A stretch of DNA of 64,000 nucleotides from Flavobacteriaceae bacterium (GTDB taxonomy: Bacteria; Bacteroidota; Bacteroidia; Flavobacteriales; Flavobacteriaceae), in contig JABSPK010000002.1 in NCBI GenBank assembly GCA_013214065.1, positions 124,001 through 188,000 of the forward strand. The letters run 5' to 3'. Position 1 is the first letter of the stretch; each line of letters opens with the position of its first letter. The notes under the pieces are model-generated. The model had not been told where the DNA came from. It did not search any database and saw only the letters and a list, made by a program, of their open reading frames with translations. Positions 36,949-41,277 of the stretch are shown in pieces. The translations under genes were made by a program, and so were the position numbers.

Positions 36949-37476
36949 ATGAGAACTTCTGAGATTCTTGTCTTGTTTCTTACCCTCATCGGACTTTCCT
37001 GTGCTTCGGTCAAGGTCAGTTATGATTATGACCGCACCACCGACTTTGACAATTACAGTACGTATAACTACTTCATCGATATGGAAACGGGCCTGAGTCA
37101 GTTGGATGAGAAACGGCTTTTACACCATCTCGATACGACCCTGGCCGGAAAAGGGTATTTGTTGGCCGAAGAACCTGATTTTTATATCAATATCCTGAGC
37201 AGCGAGTTTCGCAATACGGCCAACAACAATGTCGGTGTCGGTGTTGGCGGTACCGGGCGCAATGTAGGGGGTGGTGTTTCCGTCGGTATCCCACTAGGCA
37301 ACTCAGGATGGCAACGTAGACTGTAGTTCGATTTCGTAGATGCCCAAAAAAACGCCTTGTTTTGGCAGGCCATCAGCGAAAGTGGGTATCGCGACAACGC
37401 CTCACCAAGCGTGCGTGAAGAAGCCCTTAGAAAGTTGGTATTCAAGGTGTTCGCCAAATTTCCTCTCGAAAAATAA
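36949..37476 (+). pseudogene. DUF4136 lipoprotein gene interrupted by an in-frame TAG
   Basis: ATG 36949 gives a lipoprotein (lipobox IGLSC, Cys18) with the DUF4136 start VKVSYDYDRTTDFDNYSTYNYF, then a Gly-rich GVGVGGTGRNVGGGVSVGIPLG. A TAG stop at 37324-37326 ends the product at 125 residues. The same frame continues for 49 codons to TAA at 37474-37476 and encodes the expected family C-terminus (FDFVDAQKNALFWQA, then SPSVREEALRKLVFKVFAKFP). The intact protein would be 175 residues. A single C-to-T change (CAG to TAG) explains it. A sequencing error, suppression or a truncated functional product cannot be excluded. Confidence 0.8.
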
Positions 37477-37506
37477 ACCGCTTTTTCAATTTGGCGCCTT
37501 TCCCTT

Positions 37507-37535
37507 ACCGTTCGGTAAGCTCCCTTTACCGTTCG
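37507..37535 (+). promoter_or_regulatory. Candidate LytTR regulator binding site (two direct repeats)
   Basis: ACCGTTCG occurs at 37507-37514 and 37528-37535, each preceded by CCCTT or CCCTTT; the period is exactly 21 bp. LytTR regulators (AlgR, AgrA, YpdB type) bind paired direct repeats of about 9 bp with this period, and the core matches the AlgR core CCGTTCGTC. It lies immediately upstream of the promoter at 37570, the classic activator position. Confidence 0.6.
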
Positions 37536-37569
37536 TCATAATTTAGTTTCCGTCACCCCATGCTTCCTA

Positions 37570-37577
37570 TACTTTTG
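37570..37577 (+). promoter_or_regulatory. Promoter -7 element (TACTTTTG) of the small-membrane-protein cluster
   Basis: Exact TAnnTTTG match, 43 nt before the first small ORF (37613) and 35 nt after the second LytTR-type repeat. A TAGTTTC segment at 37544-37550 is a poor -33 element, consistent with a promoter needing an activator. Confidence 0.5.
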
Positions 37578-37612
37578 TGTTGTACAGAAGTGCTAAAACA
37601 ATCAAAAACAAA

Positions 37613-37666
37613 ATGATAACACTGGTAAAAATAATCGTAAGCTTGGTTTTGAGCATTTTACTCTAA
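37613..37666 (+). CDS. Tiny hydrophobic 17-residue ORF
   Basis: ATG 37613 to TAA 37664-37666 encodes MITLVKIIVSLVLSILL, entirely a hydrophobic helix. It resembles the signal-peptide start of flavobacterial GIN-domain lipoproteins cut off before the cysteine. It could be a functional micropeptide, a leader peptide or the remnant of such a gene. It is the first ORF after the promoter at 37570 and 33 nt ahead of the next small membrane protein. Coding status is unproven. Confidence 0.35.
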   Translation: MITLVKIIVSLVLSILL

Positions 37667-37699
37667 GCAGGAACCGAGTCCATCATCTAAAGGAAAAAC

Positions 37700-37882
37700 A
37701 TGAAATTCAGTACCATCATCCAAAGAATAACCCATATCGAAATTTTGAGTGCCTTGTTATGGGCATCCGTCATCCTCGTAGCGGGCTTTCTTTTGGTAGA
37801 TCCAGCGATGATTTCCACTTTGATCACCGCAGCGGGATTGCATGTTGTCTTATTGTCCAACCATAAAAAATCAATCAAATGA
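37700..37882 (+). CDS. Small membrane protein, 60 residues
   Basis: Residues about 13-33 (LSALLWASVILVAGFLLVDPAM) and 38-53 (STLITAAGLHVVLLS) form two hydrophobic segments with a basic C-terminus (NHKKSIK), suggesting a two-helix inner-membrane protein. Its stop overlaps the ATG of the next small gene (ATGA, 37879-37882), evidence that both are translated. No family recognised. It is part of the cluster ending in the LytS/LytTR pair. Confidence 0.65.
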   Translation: MKFSTIIQRITHIEILSALLWASVILVAGFLLVDPAMISTLITAAGLHVVLLSNHKKSIK

Positions 37883-38064
37883 AAACCATGGAAAACACCA
37901 AAAAAGTAGTATTCGCCATTGGCGCCCTTTCCGTTTTGACGGGAATCGTCGAATTAGGGATGAAAGGGGCGACCCTTGACAACTTTTTCCCCTTGTACAT
38001 CGGTCTGACCCTCATCGGATCGGTAGTATTCAATGGATCGAAACCGATCGAGAAAACCGTTTGA
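37879..38064 (+). CDS. Small membrane protein, 61 residues
   Basis: Two hydrophobic segments, VVFAIGALSVLTGIVELGM (10-28) and FFPLYIGLTLIGSVVF (36-51), with a basic N-terminus and short polar tail. It is translationally coupled to the preceding gene by a 4-nt ATGA overlap. No known family recognised. Probably an inner-membrane component of the circuit controlled by the downstream two-component system. Confidence 0.65.
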   Translation: MKTMENTKKVVFAIGALSVLTGIVELGMKGATLDNFFPLYIGLTLIGSVVFNGSKPIEKTV

Positions 38065-38078
38065 CGAAACCATTTATT

Positions 38079-38420
38079 ATGAAAAGGAAAAACCTGCCCC
38101 TTTATACATCGATATGTGCCGGTTTGATCTTGATGCTAACGGCCATTCTTGTGTATCAAGGTAAAGCCGAAGCCCTACAACCAACCTTGTTAATGTCGGC
38201 AGGCCTCCTCATGCTGGTACACGCGGTTCTGTTGAACCGCGCACCGGCCTACGTCAAGTGTGAAACCCCGGATCAGCATGGACAAAAGCCGTTAAGTTGG
38301 TCGACCATTACCACTAAAAAAGGGTTTCTCAAGGTCATTGGGATAACCTTTGGGACCATCGTGGTCTTTTTCGGTCTTGGATTTTTGATAGGCCGGCTCC
38401 TGTTTCATGTCATCCATTAA
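38079..38420 (+). CDS. Membrane protein of unknown function, 113 residues
   Basis: Start at ATG 38079 (a TTG at 38061 overlapping the previous stop is less likely). Three hydrophobic segments: YTSICAGLILMLTAILVYQ (8-26), QPTLLMSAGLLMLVHAVLL (33-51) and VIGITFGTIVVFFGLGFLIGRLLF (85-108). A polar loop (NRAPAYVKCETPDQHGQKPLSW) lies between the second and third. No family recognised. Third small membrane protein in a row ahead of the LytS/LytTR genes, 14 nt after the second. Confidence 0.65.
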   Translation: MKRKNLPLYTSICAGLILMLTAILVYQGKAEALQPTLLMSAGLLMLVHAVLLNRAPAYVKCETPDQHGQKPLSWSTITTKKGFLKVIGITFGTIVVFFGLGFLIGRLLFHVIH

Positions 38421-38432
38421 ACAGATCCTTAA

Positions 38433-38440
38433 TATCTTTG
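38433..38440 (+). promoter_or_regulatory. Promoter -7 element (TATCTTTG) of the lytS-lytTR pair
   Basis: Exact TAnnTTTG match 21 nt before the histidine kinase ATG. It would allow the sensor and regulator to be made independently of the small membrane proteins upstream. Confidence 0.45.
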
Positions 38441-38461
38441 ATACGTTAGTAGCATTCGAAT

Positions 38462-39520
38462 ATGAACATTAGCGAGAAAGGCAGAAATCGACTCTTCTGG
38501 ACGTTGCAATTCGCGGGATGGGGTTTTATCAACCTCATCTCGATTTTTTTTCTAAACAAGTTGAGTACGGCCTTTATGGTCTTCTCCATCGTCACGGGAA
38601 TAGGTATCGGTATTTTTACGACCACTTTGCTCCGATACTATTTGAAGCACAATGTTTTCTTCGAGGATTTCGGGCTAAAGGAATTGATCAAGATCGTGGT
38701 CGGTTCGTTAGTGGCCTCGATCATTTACGGTGGCCTGAATATCGGTTTCGGGGTGCTTTATGTCAAGTTTGGTCCTACCATAACGGAGGCGGAAAAAGGC
38801 ATTTTAAAGGCCTTTGATAGCCCTTGGATCGTCGTCTTCAATTCGTTGTTCATCACTTCATGTTGGGTCATTACCTATTTGGTCATTAAACTTTTGATGA
38901 AGATCAATAAAGATCGTATCGAACGACTCGAATTGAATACCAATTTGAAGCAGGCCCAATTAAACACCCTGAAGGGACAGATCAATCCACATTTCATGTT
39001 CAATAGCCTGAACAACATTCGAGGTTTGATGCTCGAAGACGTTGAAAAATCACGTGAGATGCTGACCAAACTTTCTGAAATGCTCCGCTACTCGTTGACC
39101 AAGAACAATGTGAATGCCATTGCGGTTTCAGAGGAGCTGGAAATGGTCGAGAATTACATCGCGCTTTCCAAGATACAGTTCGAGGACCGGTTGGAGTATG
39201 TTGAGGAGGTCGACCCGGGTTGTTTGCAACTGCAAATCCCACCGATGATCATTCAATTGCTTATCGAAAATGCGGCCAAACACGGCATTGCAACGCTAAA
39301 AAACGGGGGGAGGATTTTGTTGTCGATTCAAAGTGAAGCCTCGGTTTTGACGATAGTCGTCAAGAATACCGGTGTTTTGCAAATCGCAAAAAACAGTACC
39401 CAATTGGGATTAAAAAACATCAGACAGCGCTTACGATTATTGTACGGTGACCAAGCCCGTTTTGAATTGGGCGAAGATGCCGGGGAAGTGAAAGCTACCA
39501 TCAAAATTCCATTGACATGA
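38462..39520 (+). CDS. LytS-family membrane sensor histidine kinase
   Basis: 352 residues. Four hydrophobic segments in the first ~150 residues form a membrane sensor domain. A linker helix leads to the His_kinase domain with QINPHFMFNSLNNIRG, phospho-acceptor His177, and an ATPase region (IPPMIIQLLIENAAKHGI, then GLKNIRQRLRLLYG). No PAS or periplasmic domain is present, so the signal is probably read in the membrane, as in LytS or BceS-type kinases. The response regulator ATG overlaps its stop by 4 nt. The small membrane proteins upstream are good candidates for partners or targets. Confidence 0.93.
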   Translation: MNISEKGRNRLFWTLQFAGWGFINLISIFFLNKLSTAFMVFSIVTGIGIGIFTTTLLRYYLKHNVFFEDFGLKELIKIVVGSLVASIIYGGLNIGFGVLYVKFGPTITEAEKGILKAFDSPWIVVFNSLFITSCWVITYLVIKLLMKINKDRIERLELNTNLKQAQLNTLKGQINPHFMFNSLNNIRGLMLEDVEKSREMLTKLSEMLRYSLTKNNVNAIAVSEELEMVENYIALSKIQFEDRLEYVEEVDPGCLQLQIPPMIIQLLIENAAKHGIATLKNGGRILLSIQSEASVLTIVVKNTGVLQIAKNSTQLGLKNIRQRLRLLYGDQARFELGEDAGEVKATIKIPLT

Positions 39521-40242
39521 AAATACGGGCAGTTATAGTTGAAGATTCCAGGTTGGCCCGAAATGAGCTGAAAGAGCTGATCAAGACTTTCGACGAAATC
39601 GAGTTGGTCGGAGAGGCCGAGAATGTGGATATGGGTTTTGAGCTGCTGCAAAAAGAACTTCCGGATCTATTGTTTTTGGATATCAATATGCCCGAGAAAG
39701 ACGGGTTCGATCTACTCGAAATGCTCGATGAGGTCCCGATTACCGTATTTACGACTGCATTCGATGAGTATGCTATCAAATCATTCGAATACAACGCTTT
39801 GGACTACCTTCTAAAACCTATTAACGCCAAGCGTTTTAGTCTGGCTATTGAGAAAGTCAAGATCCAGCTTGAAAAAACTTCGGATACGGGCACTACCGCA
39901 ACAAGATTGACCGGAAGTAGTCAGATTTTCATAAAAGATGGGGAACGTTGCTGGTTGGTCAAAATCAATGAAATCTCCCATTTTGAAATCGTTGGCAACT
40001 ATACCCGGGTGTTTTTCGCCGAAGAGCGGCCCATGCTCTATAAATCATTGCAACAGATCGAGGAAAAGCTTCCTGAGGCCAACTTTTTCAGGACCAACCG
40101 ACAGCAGATCGTCAATACGAATTTCATCAAAGAAGTGGTGCCATGGTTCAATGGCAAATTGAAGCTGGTCATGGGCAATGGGGAAGAGATCGAGGTCTCT
40201 AGACGACAGTCTTACCTTTTTAAAGATAAACTCAGTTTTTAG
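39517..40242 (+). CDS. LytTR family response regulator
   Basis: 241 residues. Receiver domain (1-120) with the acidic pair in VIVEDSR, phospho-acceptor Asp55 in LFLDINMPEKDG, conserved Thr in FTTAFDEYA, and Lys in YLLKPI. The LytTR DNA-binding domain is at about 140-241 (IKDGERCWLVKINEISHFEIVGNYTRVFF, FFRTNRQQIVNTNFIKEV). LytTR proteins bind paired direct repeats with a 21-22 bp period, such as the ACCGTTCG pair at 37507-37535. It is coupled to the kinase gene by an ATGA overlap. Confidence 0.94.
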   Translation: MKIRAVIVEDSRLARNELKELIKTFDEIELVGEAENVDMGFELLQKELPDLLFLDINMPEKDGFDLLEMLDEVPITVFTTAFDEYAIKSFEYNALDYLLKPINAKRFSLAIEKVKIQLEKTSDTGTTATRLTGSSQIFIKDGERCWLVKINEISHFEIVGNYTRVFFAEERPMLYKSLQQIEEKLPEANFFRTNRQQIVNTNFIKEVVPWFNGKLKLVMGNGEEIEVSRRQSYLFKDKLSF

Positions 40243-40269
40243 AAATCGCTTAATCGTTTTTTCATCGGA

Positions 40270-41277
40270 TTACCGAACGACCTCAACGACATAGGTTGAA
40301 ATGGCCTGGTCACCTGAGAAGATATGAAGGTCGTAATGCCCTCGCCTTTTGAAGGAATGCCGAAGGTGGATAGTGTCACCACTGCGGTATTGGATCGGGT
40401 CGATCTTTGAGGTTTTTCCATTTTTATTGATAACGAATCGCATCGGCCGGTCGGCCAGGTTATCAAGTTGTTGTATGGTGAACTCAAGGGGTTGGTTGAC
40501 TTTGAGCGCGACGTCCATGGTGGCAGGGTAGGTTGGGTTTAATCGGTTTTCGAACGCCGATCGATAAATGATCGGTCCAGTGATAAACGTCTTGAAGGAG
40601 GGTGGCTCTTCGAGCAAGGCCCACTGTGGGTCGATCGGATAATGGTTCTTGATGAAAAGTTTAGGGTCGGGCAAGAAATAGCTGTCATTGAAATCGGGTT
40701 TGAAGGATATGGCCTCCTTTTCAAACCGGATGCTTCCTGCCGACCAAGTTGCATCGCATAGATACCAGTTTCCATCCAATTCAATGGCATTCCATGAATG
40801 GTTAGCAACACTTGTTTCATTCAAAGCGGTATGCGCGGTACGTCCGTAACCATCAACGATACGGCAATCAAGCCCTGATAATGATGAAAGTTCGCGAATC
40901 AGATATGCATATCCGGTACAAGCGGTTTTTTTCTTCTTCAATAGGTTTTTGAACATGGTCGGCAAATACTTGCGGTTCCATTGTTCGAATGCCAAAGGCT
41001 CTTTCCTTAATTTTTGACGCCGGTGTTTTGTTTTGGTGAAGGCATCGTAATCGTTGGCGATGTTGGTGCTTACCCATGTGAAAATCGCCCTGAATTTCCC
41101 GTGATCGGTCGGCAGGTCTTTGGTCAGACGATAAGCAAGCAGCGGTAGGTTGTCAAGTGACATCCCACGATGTATTGCGGCGATGCTATCGGCTTTATGG
41201 TAGGCAATGCCATTCTTTGCTTCCCATTGCCCATGTGCCGCAATACATGTAAGATACACTAGGATGAAGATCCGCAT
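40270..41277 (-). CDS. Exported transglutaminase-like cysteine protein
   Basis: 335 residues with a signal peptide (MRIFILVYLTCIAAHG). The transglutaminase/papain-like triad is visible: Cys120 in KTACTGYAYLIRE, His160 in NHSWNAIEL, Asp175 in LCDATW. The C-terminal third is beta-rich (VNQPLEFTIQQLDNLADRPMRF, GDTIHLRHSFKRRGHYDLHIF), like a small Ig-type module. It could be a peptidase or a cross-linking enzyme in the periplasm. It follows the carboxypeptidase-regulatory-domain gene with a 1-nt overlap of stop and start, so they are co-expressed. Confidence 0.87.
   Translation of the reverse strand: MRIFILVYLTCIAAHGQWEAKNGIAYHKADSIAAIHRGMSLDNLPLLAYRLTKDLPTDHGKFRAIFTWVSTNIANDYDAFTKTKHRRQKLRKEPLAFEQWNRKYLPTMFKNLLKKKKTACTGYAYLIRELSSLSGLDCRIVDGYGRTAHTALNETSVANHSWNAIELDGNWYLCDATWSAGSIRFEKEAISFKPDFNDSYFLPDPKLFIKNHYPIDPQWALLEEPPSFKTFITGPIIYRSAFENRLNPTYPATMDVALKVNQPLEFTIQQLDNLADRPMRFVINKNGKTSKIDPIQYRSGDTIHLRHSFKRRGHYDLHIFSGDQAISTYVVEVVR

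Follow-up and report, generated by a model that had tools for sequence, protein, structure and literature searches.

Regulators of the LytTR family bind imperfect direct repeats ~12 bp apart, the spacing being crucial, and the core site of AlgR, a LytTR-family regulator of Pseudomonas with its own kinase AlgZ, is CCGTTCGTC (PMC4064291). In the LytTR regulatory systems (LRS) HdrRM and BrsRM, a regulator devoid of a phosphorylation domain is combined with one inhibiting membrane protein in an autoactivated operon, and the ACC-type repeats of LRS promoters are mostly 12 bp apart with a bias to 10 bp upstream of the -35 element (PMC6193735), while MgrB, a membrane protein of 47 residues, inhibits the kinase PhoQ and is itself a member of the PhoQ regulon (PMC8404706). 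The locus considered here lies in a 64,000-nucleotide stretch of a Flavobacteriaceae bacterium (assembly GCA_013214065.1, contig JABSPK010000002.1, positions 124,001 to 188,000), hereafter the window, and comprises a tandem LytTR-type element, a minute gene named pep17, three larger genes for small membrane proteins, and the kinase and regulator genes lytS and lytTR. Sequence comparison suggests, with a probability of roughly 70%, that these parts form a positively autoregulated LytS–LytTR envelope-response circuit whose constant output would be the inner-membrane micropeptide encoded by pep17.

This locus resembles the LRS in its paired ACC-type repeats, in the presence of a membrane protein within the operon and, probably, in autoactivation. 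Read as 9-bp repeats, the two copies in the window are separated by 12 bp, and the second ends 10 bp before the putative -33 TTT, a geometry that agrees with that of LRS promoters (repeats ~12 bp apart, ~10 bp upstream of -35). Unlike in the LRS, a receiver domain is present in the regulator and a LytS kinase is encoded next to it (PMC6193735). The likeness to AlgZ/AlgR consists of a LytTR-family regulator with its own kinase and of CCGTTCGTC, which is identical to part of half-site 2, whereas a partner site at 12 bp is not obligatory for AlgR and the accessible part of that source mentions no micropeptide (PMC4064291). The AlgR core and the LytTR repeat layout had already been pointed out in a preliminary description based on the window letters, and both agree with the published core and spacing (PMC4064291, PMC6193735). 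Like MgrB (PMC8404706), pep17 would be a small membrane product within the regulon of a kinase, but it has only 17 residues, and kinase inhibition is described for MgrB.

The features that carry the argument are listed below. Counts of loci refer to the window together with 80 relatives, namely the best 80 of 569 confirmed candidates found by LytS similarity (named records, mostly Flavobacteriaceae); compared loci bear L numbers and surveyed genomes G numbers.

37507..37514, + strand: half-site 1, LytTR-type, ACCGTTCG; fixed-spacing alignment in 81/81 loci
37528..37542, + strand: half-site 2, extended form ACCGTTCGTCATAAT; CATA invariant in the 57-row alignment; includes the AlgR core CCGTTCGTC
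37547..37549, + strand: putative -33 element TTT, 10 bp past the second 9-bp repeat
37570..37577, + strand: putative -7 box TACTTTTG (TAnnTTTG); TA/TT columns in 81/81 loci
37613..37666, + strand: pep17, hydrophobic peptide of 17 residues, MITLVKIIVSLVLSILL; counterpart of 17–20 residues in 81/81 loci; codon-level selection
38433..38440, + strand: putative internal lytS promoter box TATCTTTG; box kept in 65/81 loci
38462..39520, + strand: lytS, LytS-type histidine kinase with QINPHF box; PF06580 match
39517..40242, + strand: lytTR, receiver–LytTR response regulator, Asp55 in LFLDIN

The tandem element upstream of lytS

The two ACCGTTCG repeats and the TAnnTTTG box downstream of them, both reported in the preliminary description, are present, the starts of the repeats being 21 bp apart, and the pair is unique in the window and in its own genome: with a gap of 8–18 it occurs once in the window and in none of 100 shuffles, and with a gap of 10–16 once in the whole 3.48-Mb genome. 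The single 8-mer was rejected as a stand-alone signal (5 occurrences in the window vs 2.43 expected, a number reached in 10/100 shuffles), and a relaxed one-half-site pattern, TACCRNTSGTCAT with one mismatch, proved unhelpful, with 113 places in the own genome vs 62 in the reversed control. The conserved form of half-site 2 is longer than the 8-mer, with TCATAAT as its continuation, and reads ACC(A/G)(C/T)T.GTCATAAT.

With a weight matrix, the tandem element was located ahead of lytS in the window and in each of the 80 relatives. The 81 loci hold 77 distinct elements, and 57 of the 81 make up the element alignment. When each locus was scored with similar sites removed from the training set, the best upstream place reached 23.6–46.8 in 81/81 loci, compared with controls that peaked at 5.2 (reverse strand), 4.1 (downstream) and 1.4 (shuffled sequence); this place was unchanged in 79 loci, and a second element was picked in L078 and L081. 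Counted from the start of repeat 1, repeat 2 lies at +21, 89% of loci have T at +40 and 99% have it at +41, and the -7 region, which lies outside the columns used for finding the sites, shows TA at +63/64 and TT at +67/68 in 81/81 loci; the strict TAnnTTTG form of the -7 box is present in 22/81. The box TATCTTTG of the internal promoter proposed at 38433 is present, and a TAnnTTTG box occurs within 100 nt upstream of lytS in 65/81 loci vs 4.2 expected from shuffling. As an observation apart, L142 and L144 contain several element copies per locus, each preceding its own small gene, as if element–gene units had been duplicated.

The identity of the two proteins read at the end of the operon as a LytS-type kinase and a LytTR regulator was confirmed by Pfam domains: His_kinase (PF06580, E 3.5e-26) with an intact QINPHF box in the kinase, and LytTR (E 1.4e-24) and Response_reg (E 1.1e-18), with the phospho-acceptor Asp55 present, in the regulator.

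In order to widen the comparison, 299 Flavobacteriaceae genomes drawn evenly were surveyed, and this LytS (match at E<=1e-60) was found in 29 of them. By coordinates, 25 of these have a match of the element model R1 at E<=0.05 no farther than ~3 kb upstream of lytS. Seven of these 29 genomes are sources of model rows (the window genome, G228, G119, G210, G125, G101 and G149); after their removal, the element is found near lytS in 18/22. All 17 genomes with an element match at E<=3e-4, ten of which are not in the model, carry this LytS, and each has at least one match near its gene. In a further draw across the phylum, 2/395 genomes match at E<=0.01, both of the same family, a figure that does not show the share outside the Flavobacteriaceae. 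An additional match in the own genome (C7:52798, E 0.041) lies inside a coding gene and was taken as chance.

The constant micropeptide pep17

A hydrophobic open reading frame (ORF) of 17–20 residues with Lys or Arg near position 6 is found in 81/81 loci (17 residues in 73 loci, 18–20 in 8), a count obtained with a picking rule that favours hydrophobic ORFs with Lys at positions 5–8, which 79/81 passed, the remaining two being read from the list of misses. No other gene of the cluster is retained as consistently, the other small proteins being variable or replaced; the general ORF listing is incomplete for L039–L046, and the pep17 listing is complete for all loci. Over 2346 pairs of distinct 17-mers, the proportions of synonymous (pS) and nonsynonymous (pN) differences are 0.72 and 0.30, and in 178 close pairs 0.47 and 0.08. 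This codon-level selection implies that pep17 is very probably translated and a real gene.

From its composition, the peptide is predicted to reside in the inner membrane. Polar residues occupy positions 10 (mostly Ser/Thr) and 14 (mostly Ser/Asp/Asn), and together with Lys6 they would form a polar stripe on one helix face. No Cys placed as in a lipobox after the hydrophobic stretch was found among the 81 peptides; that of L034 (19 residues) ends in Cys, and the other 80 are Cys-free. Neither pep17 nor its promoter is described in the literature found, which did not extend to subscription papers and small-ORF catalogues, as these could not be searched.

Since pep17 is usually the first gene after the promoter (93–109 nt after repeat 1 in 75/79), it could be regarded as a leader peptide that controls the downstream genes by the act of its translation, irrespective of its residues. 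This is very unlikely, given that selection acts at the amino-acid level, that 22 sequences of the leader and peptide region contain no conserved RNA pairs, that pep17 lies behind other ORFs in L073, L076, L078 and L081, and that similar peptides follow BlaR1-type genes (see below). The relocated pep17 of L078 and L081 is preceded by an element of its own, and in L075 pep17 is the only ORF listed between the element and lytS. An RNA leader or riboswitch was likewise rejected, with 0 conserved pairs and no match in an Rfam search of 37300–40400.

LytTR regulators are often paired with peptide-sensing kinases and autoinduced promoters, and some known pheromones originate from lipoprotein signal peptides, which pep17 resembles. 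Thus, pep17 might be taken for a secreted or processed autoinducer sensed by LytS, in a quorum circuit like Agr or Com. This explanation is highly improbable: the peptide is shared by different genera and does not divide into specificity groups, the kinase belongs to the PF06580 type, and Pfam yields no exporter or protease family match within the window operon.

Among the 29 surveyed genomes with LytS, a recognisable peptide was found in 21, G000 included, as judged by visual inspection of a list in which unrelated hydrophobic ORFs occur as well. Divergent peptides of 17–24 residues lie 95–112 nt past the element in distant lytS loci (G142, G044, G137, G085, G239 and G276); in G235 the peptide is away from the element, and in G059 it occurs without a detected one.

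Similar peptides beside other envelope systems

A profile built from 54 peptides (52 of the 81, with L141 and L142) has 23 matches at E<=0.01 in the 299 genomes, where ~3 are expected by chance. Ten of the 23 adjoin lytS, and the query profile itself contains eight of these ten (G000, G228, G210, G101, G119, G149, G163 and G214). A further eight lie in the locus of a conserved 50-residue protein, with or without a BlaR1-type gene, and four of them (G175, G077, G239 and G114) directly follow such a gene (Pfam M56 tested in L237 only). Three matches adjoin PspC-type genes (one tested, L160), and two are signal peptides of head-GIN-type proteins (one tested, L172). In the own genome, a 20-residue peptide follows a BlaI–BlaR1/M56 pair (profile E 0.0188).

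In G000:C8 (L231) and L235–L241, BlaI–BlaR1/M56-type genes are followed by a peptide of 16–23 residues starting with MIT or MIA and, in most loci, by the conserved 50-residue protein, which belongs to no Pfam family. Between PspC-type and DUF2807-type genes, the slot of the free 17-residue peptide in L160 and L161 is filled in L171 and L172 by a head-GIN (DUF2807-type) lipoprotein with a similar signal peptide. The start of the DUF2807 protein of L172, MTTLAKIIITLLISLLFTSC, is very similar to pep17 (M.TLAKII.TL..SLL), but pep17 stops before any lipobox and has no mature domain. This likeness might suggest that pep17 is a functionless, decaying remnant of a head-GIN lipoprotein signal peptide, an explanation that is scarcely credible in view of the selection on its length and residues (17 in 73/81, 18–20 in 8/81) and of the codon pattern. 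Homology between such short peptides cannot be proven, and convergence on a signal-peptide-like form is possible.

Tentatively, pep17 may belong to an unannotated family of signal-peptide-like membrane peptides of ~14–24 residues that act as a common effector or feedback part and are encoded beside LytS–LytTR, BlaI–BlaR1/M56 and PspC–GIN systems. Alternatively, pep17 might be a regulated peptide that permeabilises membranes in the manner of type I toxins, deployed under envelope stress, and not a kinase partner; its size, hydrophobicity and single positive charge would fit such peptides, and similar peptides beside three unrelated envelope systems suit a shared effector. Type I toxins, however, are usually separate genes paired with an antisense RNA, whereas pep17 lies within the sensor operon in 81/81 loci and is kept across genera, so that this alternative appears unlikely. 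If the peptide does act alike beside the three sensors, it would point to a shared envelope-stress output in a major marine bacterial group. The comparison also brings to light a class of conserved membrane peptides whose shortness lets them escape routine gene calling.

The proposed circuit and its exchangeable cargo

In the proposed LytS–LytTR circuit, a basal promoter at 38433, whose box is conserved, would supply kinase and regulator, and some envelope signal would lead to phosphorylation of the regulator. The latter would then bind the half-sites at 37507 and 37528 and recruit RNA polymerase to the -33/-7 promoter, producing a transcript that carries pep17, the three small membrane proteins, lytS and lytTR; a hydrolase gene ~125 kb away in the own genome would be a probable second target. 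Judging from its composition, pep17 most likely enters the inner membrane as a signal-peptide-like helix that is not cleaved and has Lys6 facing the cytoplasm, and it would act as a constant output or feedback part, while other cargo is swapped between lineages. The best-supported part of this scheme is a LytTR system that probably activates its own operon from the basal level of the internal promoter. Activation of the small-protein cluster by the regulator, as first suggested in the preliminary description, is supported by the conservation of the element, its geometry and its co-occurrence with LytS, and the pattern that would have spoken against it, with repeats and small ORFs not kept alongside lytS/lytTR in the relatives, was not encountered. 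That small membrane proteins tune the kinase, also proposed there, is possible. As pep17 accompanies three unrelated sensors, an effector or general membrane-feedback role is slightly favoured over that of a dedicated LytS subunit. With this circuit, a LytS–LytTR system of the Bacteroidota would gain a testable target site of exact geometry and a predicted regulon.

Several observations weigh against this circuit. Firstly, the 80 relatives are related rather than independent, because they were chosen by LytS similarity. Secondly, R1 at E<=0.05 finds no element near lytS in 4/29 LytS genomes (G059, G185, G194 and G223), and some of the 25 matches are weak on their own (G056, E 0.026; G112, E 0.0496), with no element detected in G056 by the weight matrix at 15. 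Moreover, R1 matches at E<=0.05 occur in 108/299 genomes overall, with ~15 expected by chance, and G188, G132 and G289, which are without this LytS, match the element at E 4e-4 to 1e-3, where ~0.3 genomes are expected at E<=1e-3. With regard to the peptide, none was recognised by eye in 8/29 LytS genomes (G202, G056, G112, G178, G185, G194, G223 and G287), and a role as LytS-specific partner is made less likely by peptides of this type accompanying unrelated sensors as well. Finally, the site of the own-genome hydrolase is weak, scoring 16.3, when a false place in a coding gene scores 15.1. The four LytS genomes without a detected element and the three genomes matching without this LytS would suit an element bound by a regulator other than this LytTR protein; this is nevertheless very improbable, since the form of the element fits LytTR direct repeats and the 17 genomes with the strongest matches all carry this LytS, with at least one match near its gene.

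The remaining genes of the cluster, which extends over 37613–38420, as the preliminary description had outlined, and contains four small ORFs (17, 60, 61 and 113 residues), are the following:

37700..37882, + strand: protein of 60 residues, two predicted membrane helices; without family match
37879..38064, + strand: protein of 61 residues, two predicted membrane helices; match at E<=0.01 in 7/299 genomes, own included
38079..38420, + strand: protein of 113 residues, three predicted helices, C-terminal FFGLGF.(I/V)G(K/R)L motif

None of these three proteins has a match below E 0.01 in Pfam or NCBIfam, in agreement with the earlier impression that they belong to no recognised family. A predicted structure of the 113-residue protein was dropped as a functional clue (mean predicted local distance difference test score, pLDDT, 71.4; predicted template-modelling score, pTM, 0.40). 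In the compared sequences, the element and the 17-residue peptide are the constant part, and the larger small proteins (60, 61 and 113 residues) are replaceable cargo.

The cargo under the element includes small membrane proteins, a Peptidase_S9-family hydrolase, a PF00144 beta-lactamase-family protein, ankyrin proteins and others. An element scoring >13 lies within 400 nt upstream of the hydrolase ORF in 26/31 cases, the relocated own-genome one included, a count that contains contigs fetched twice (L033/L143, L065/L140 and L066/L148) and whose lowest scores, 14.8–16.3, are near the 15.1 of the own-genome false place. The own-genome hydrolase, of the prolyl-oligopeptidase family, has the weaker element mentioned above (R1 E 0.0042) and, given the score of the false place, support for this site comes from its position before the same gene, not from its score. 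G202 carries a strong element (E 7.6e-9) ahead of ankyrin genes, and its lytS is on another contig.

Many of the loci have obgE and a DUF4136-type gene in common on the upstream side and lytS–lytTR on the downstream side, with exceptions such as L215, L218, L220, L224 and L227; the names obgE, hpt/adk and exchanger were given by resemblance, and DUF4136 by Pfam in the window. The DUF4136 lipoprotein gene of the window (36949–37476) contains at 37324 an in-frame TAG that is not shared by the four relatives compared, in which the frame stays open; the gene is either interrupted in the own genome or the base is a sequencing error. According to a report that was not used as evidence here, each of five coevolved F. 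johnsoniae isolates is mutated in a LytTR regulator or kinase gene (FJOH_RS09515/09520; PMC10197871). In L076, L079, L080, L144, L147/L228 and L149, a second LytS-like gene lies upstream of an intact lytS and has lost the phospho-acceptor His, QINPHF being replaced by HINSRF, HLNPDF, HLNPEF, HVNPEF, HVNGKF or HLNPNF, so that a pseudokinase recurs beside its kinase in six genomes.

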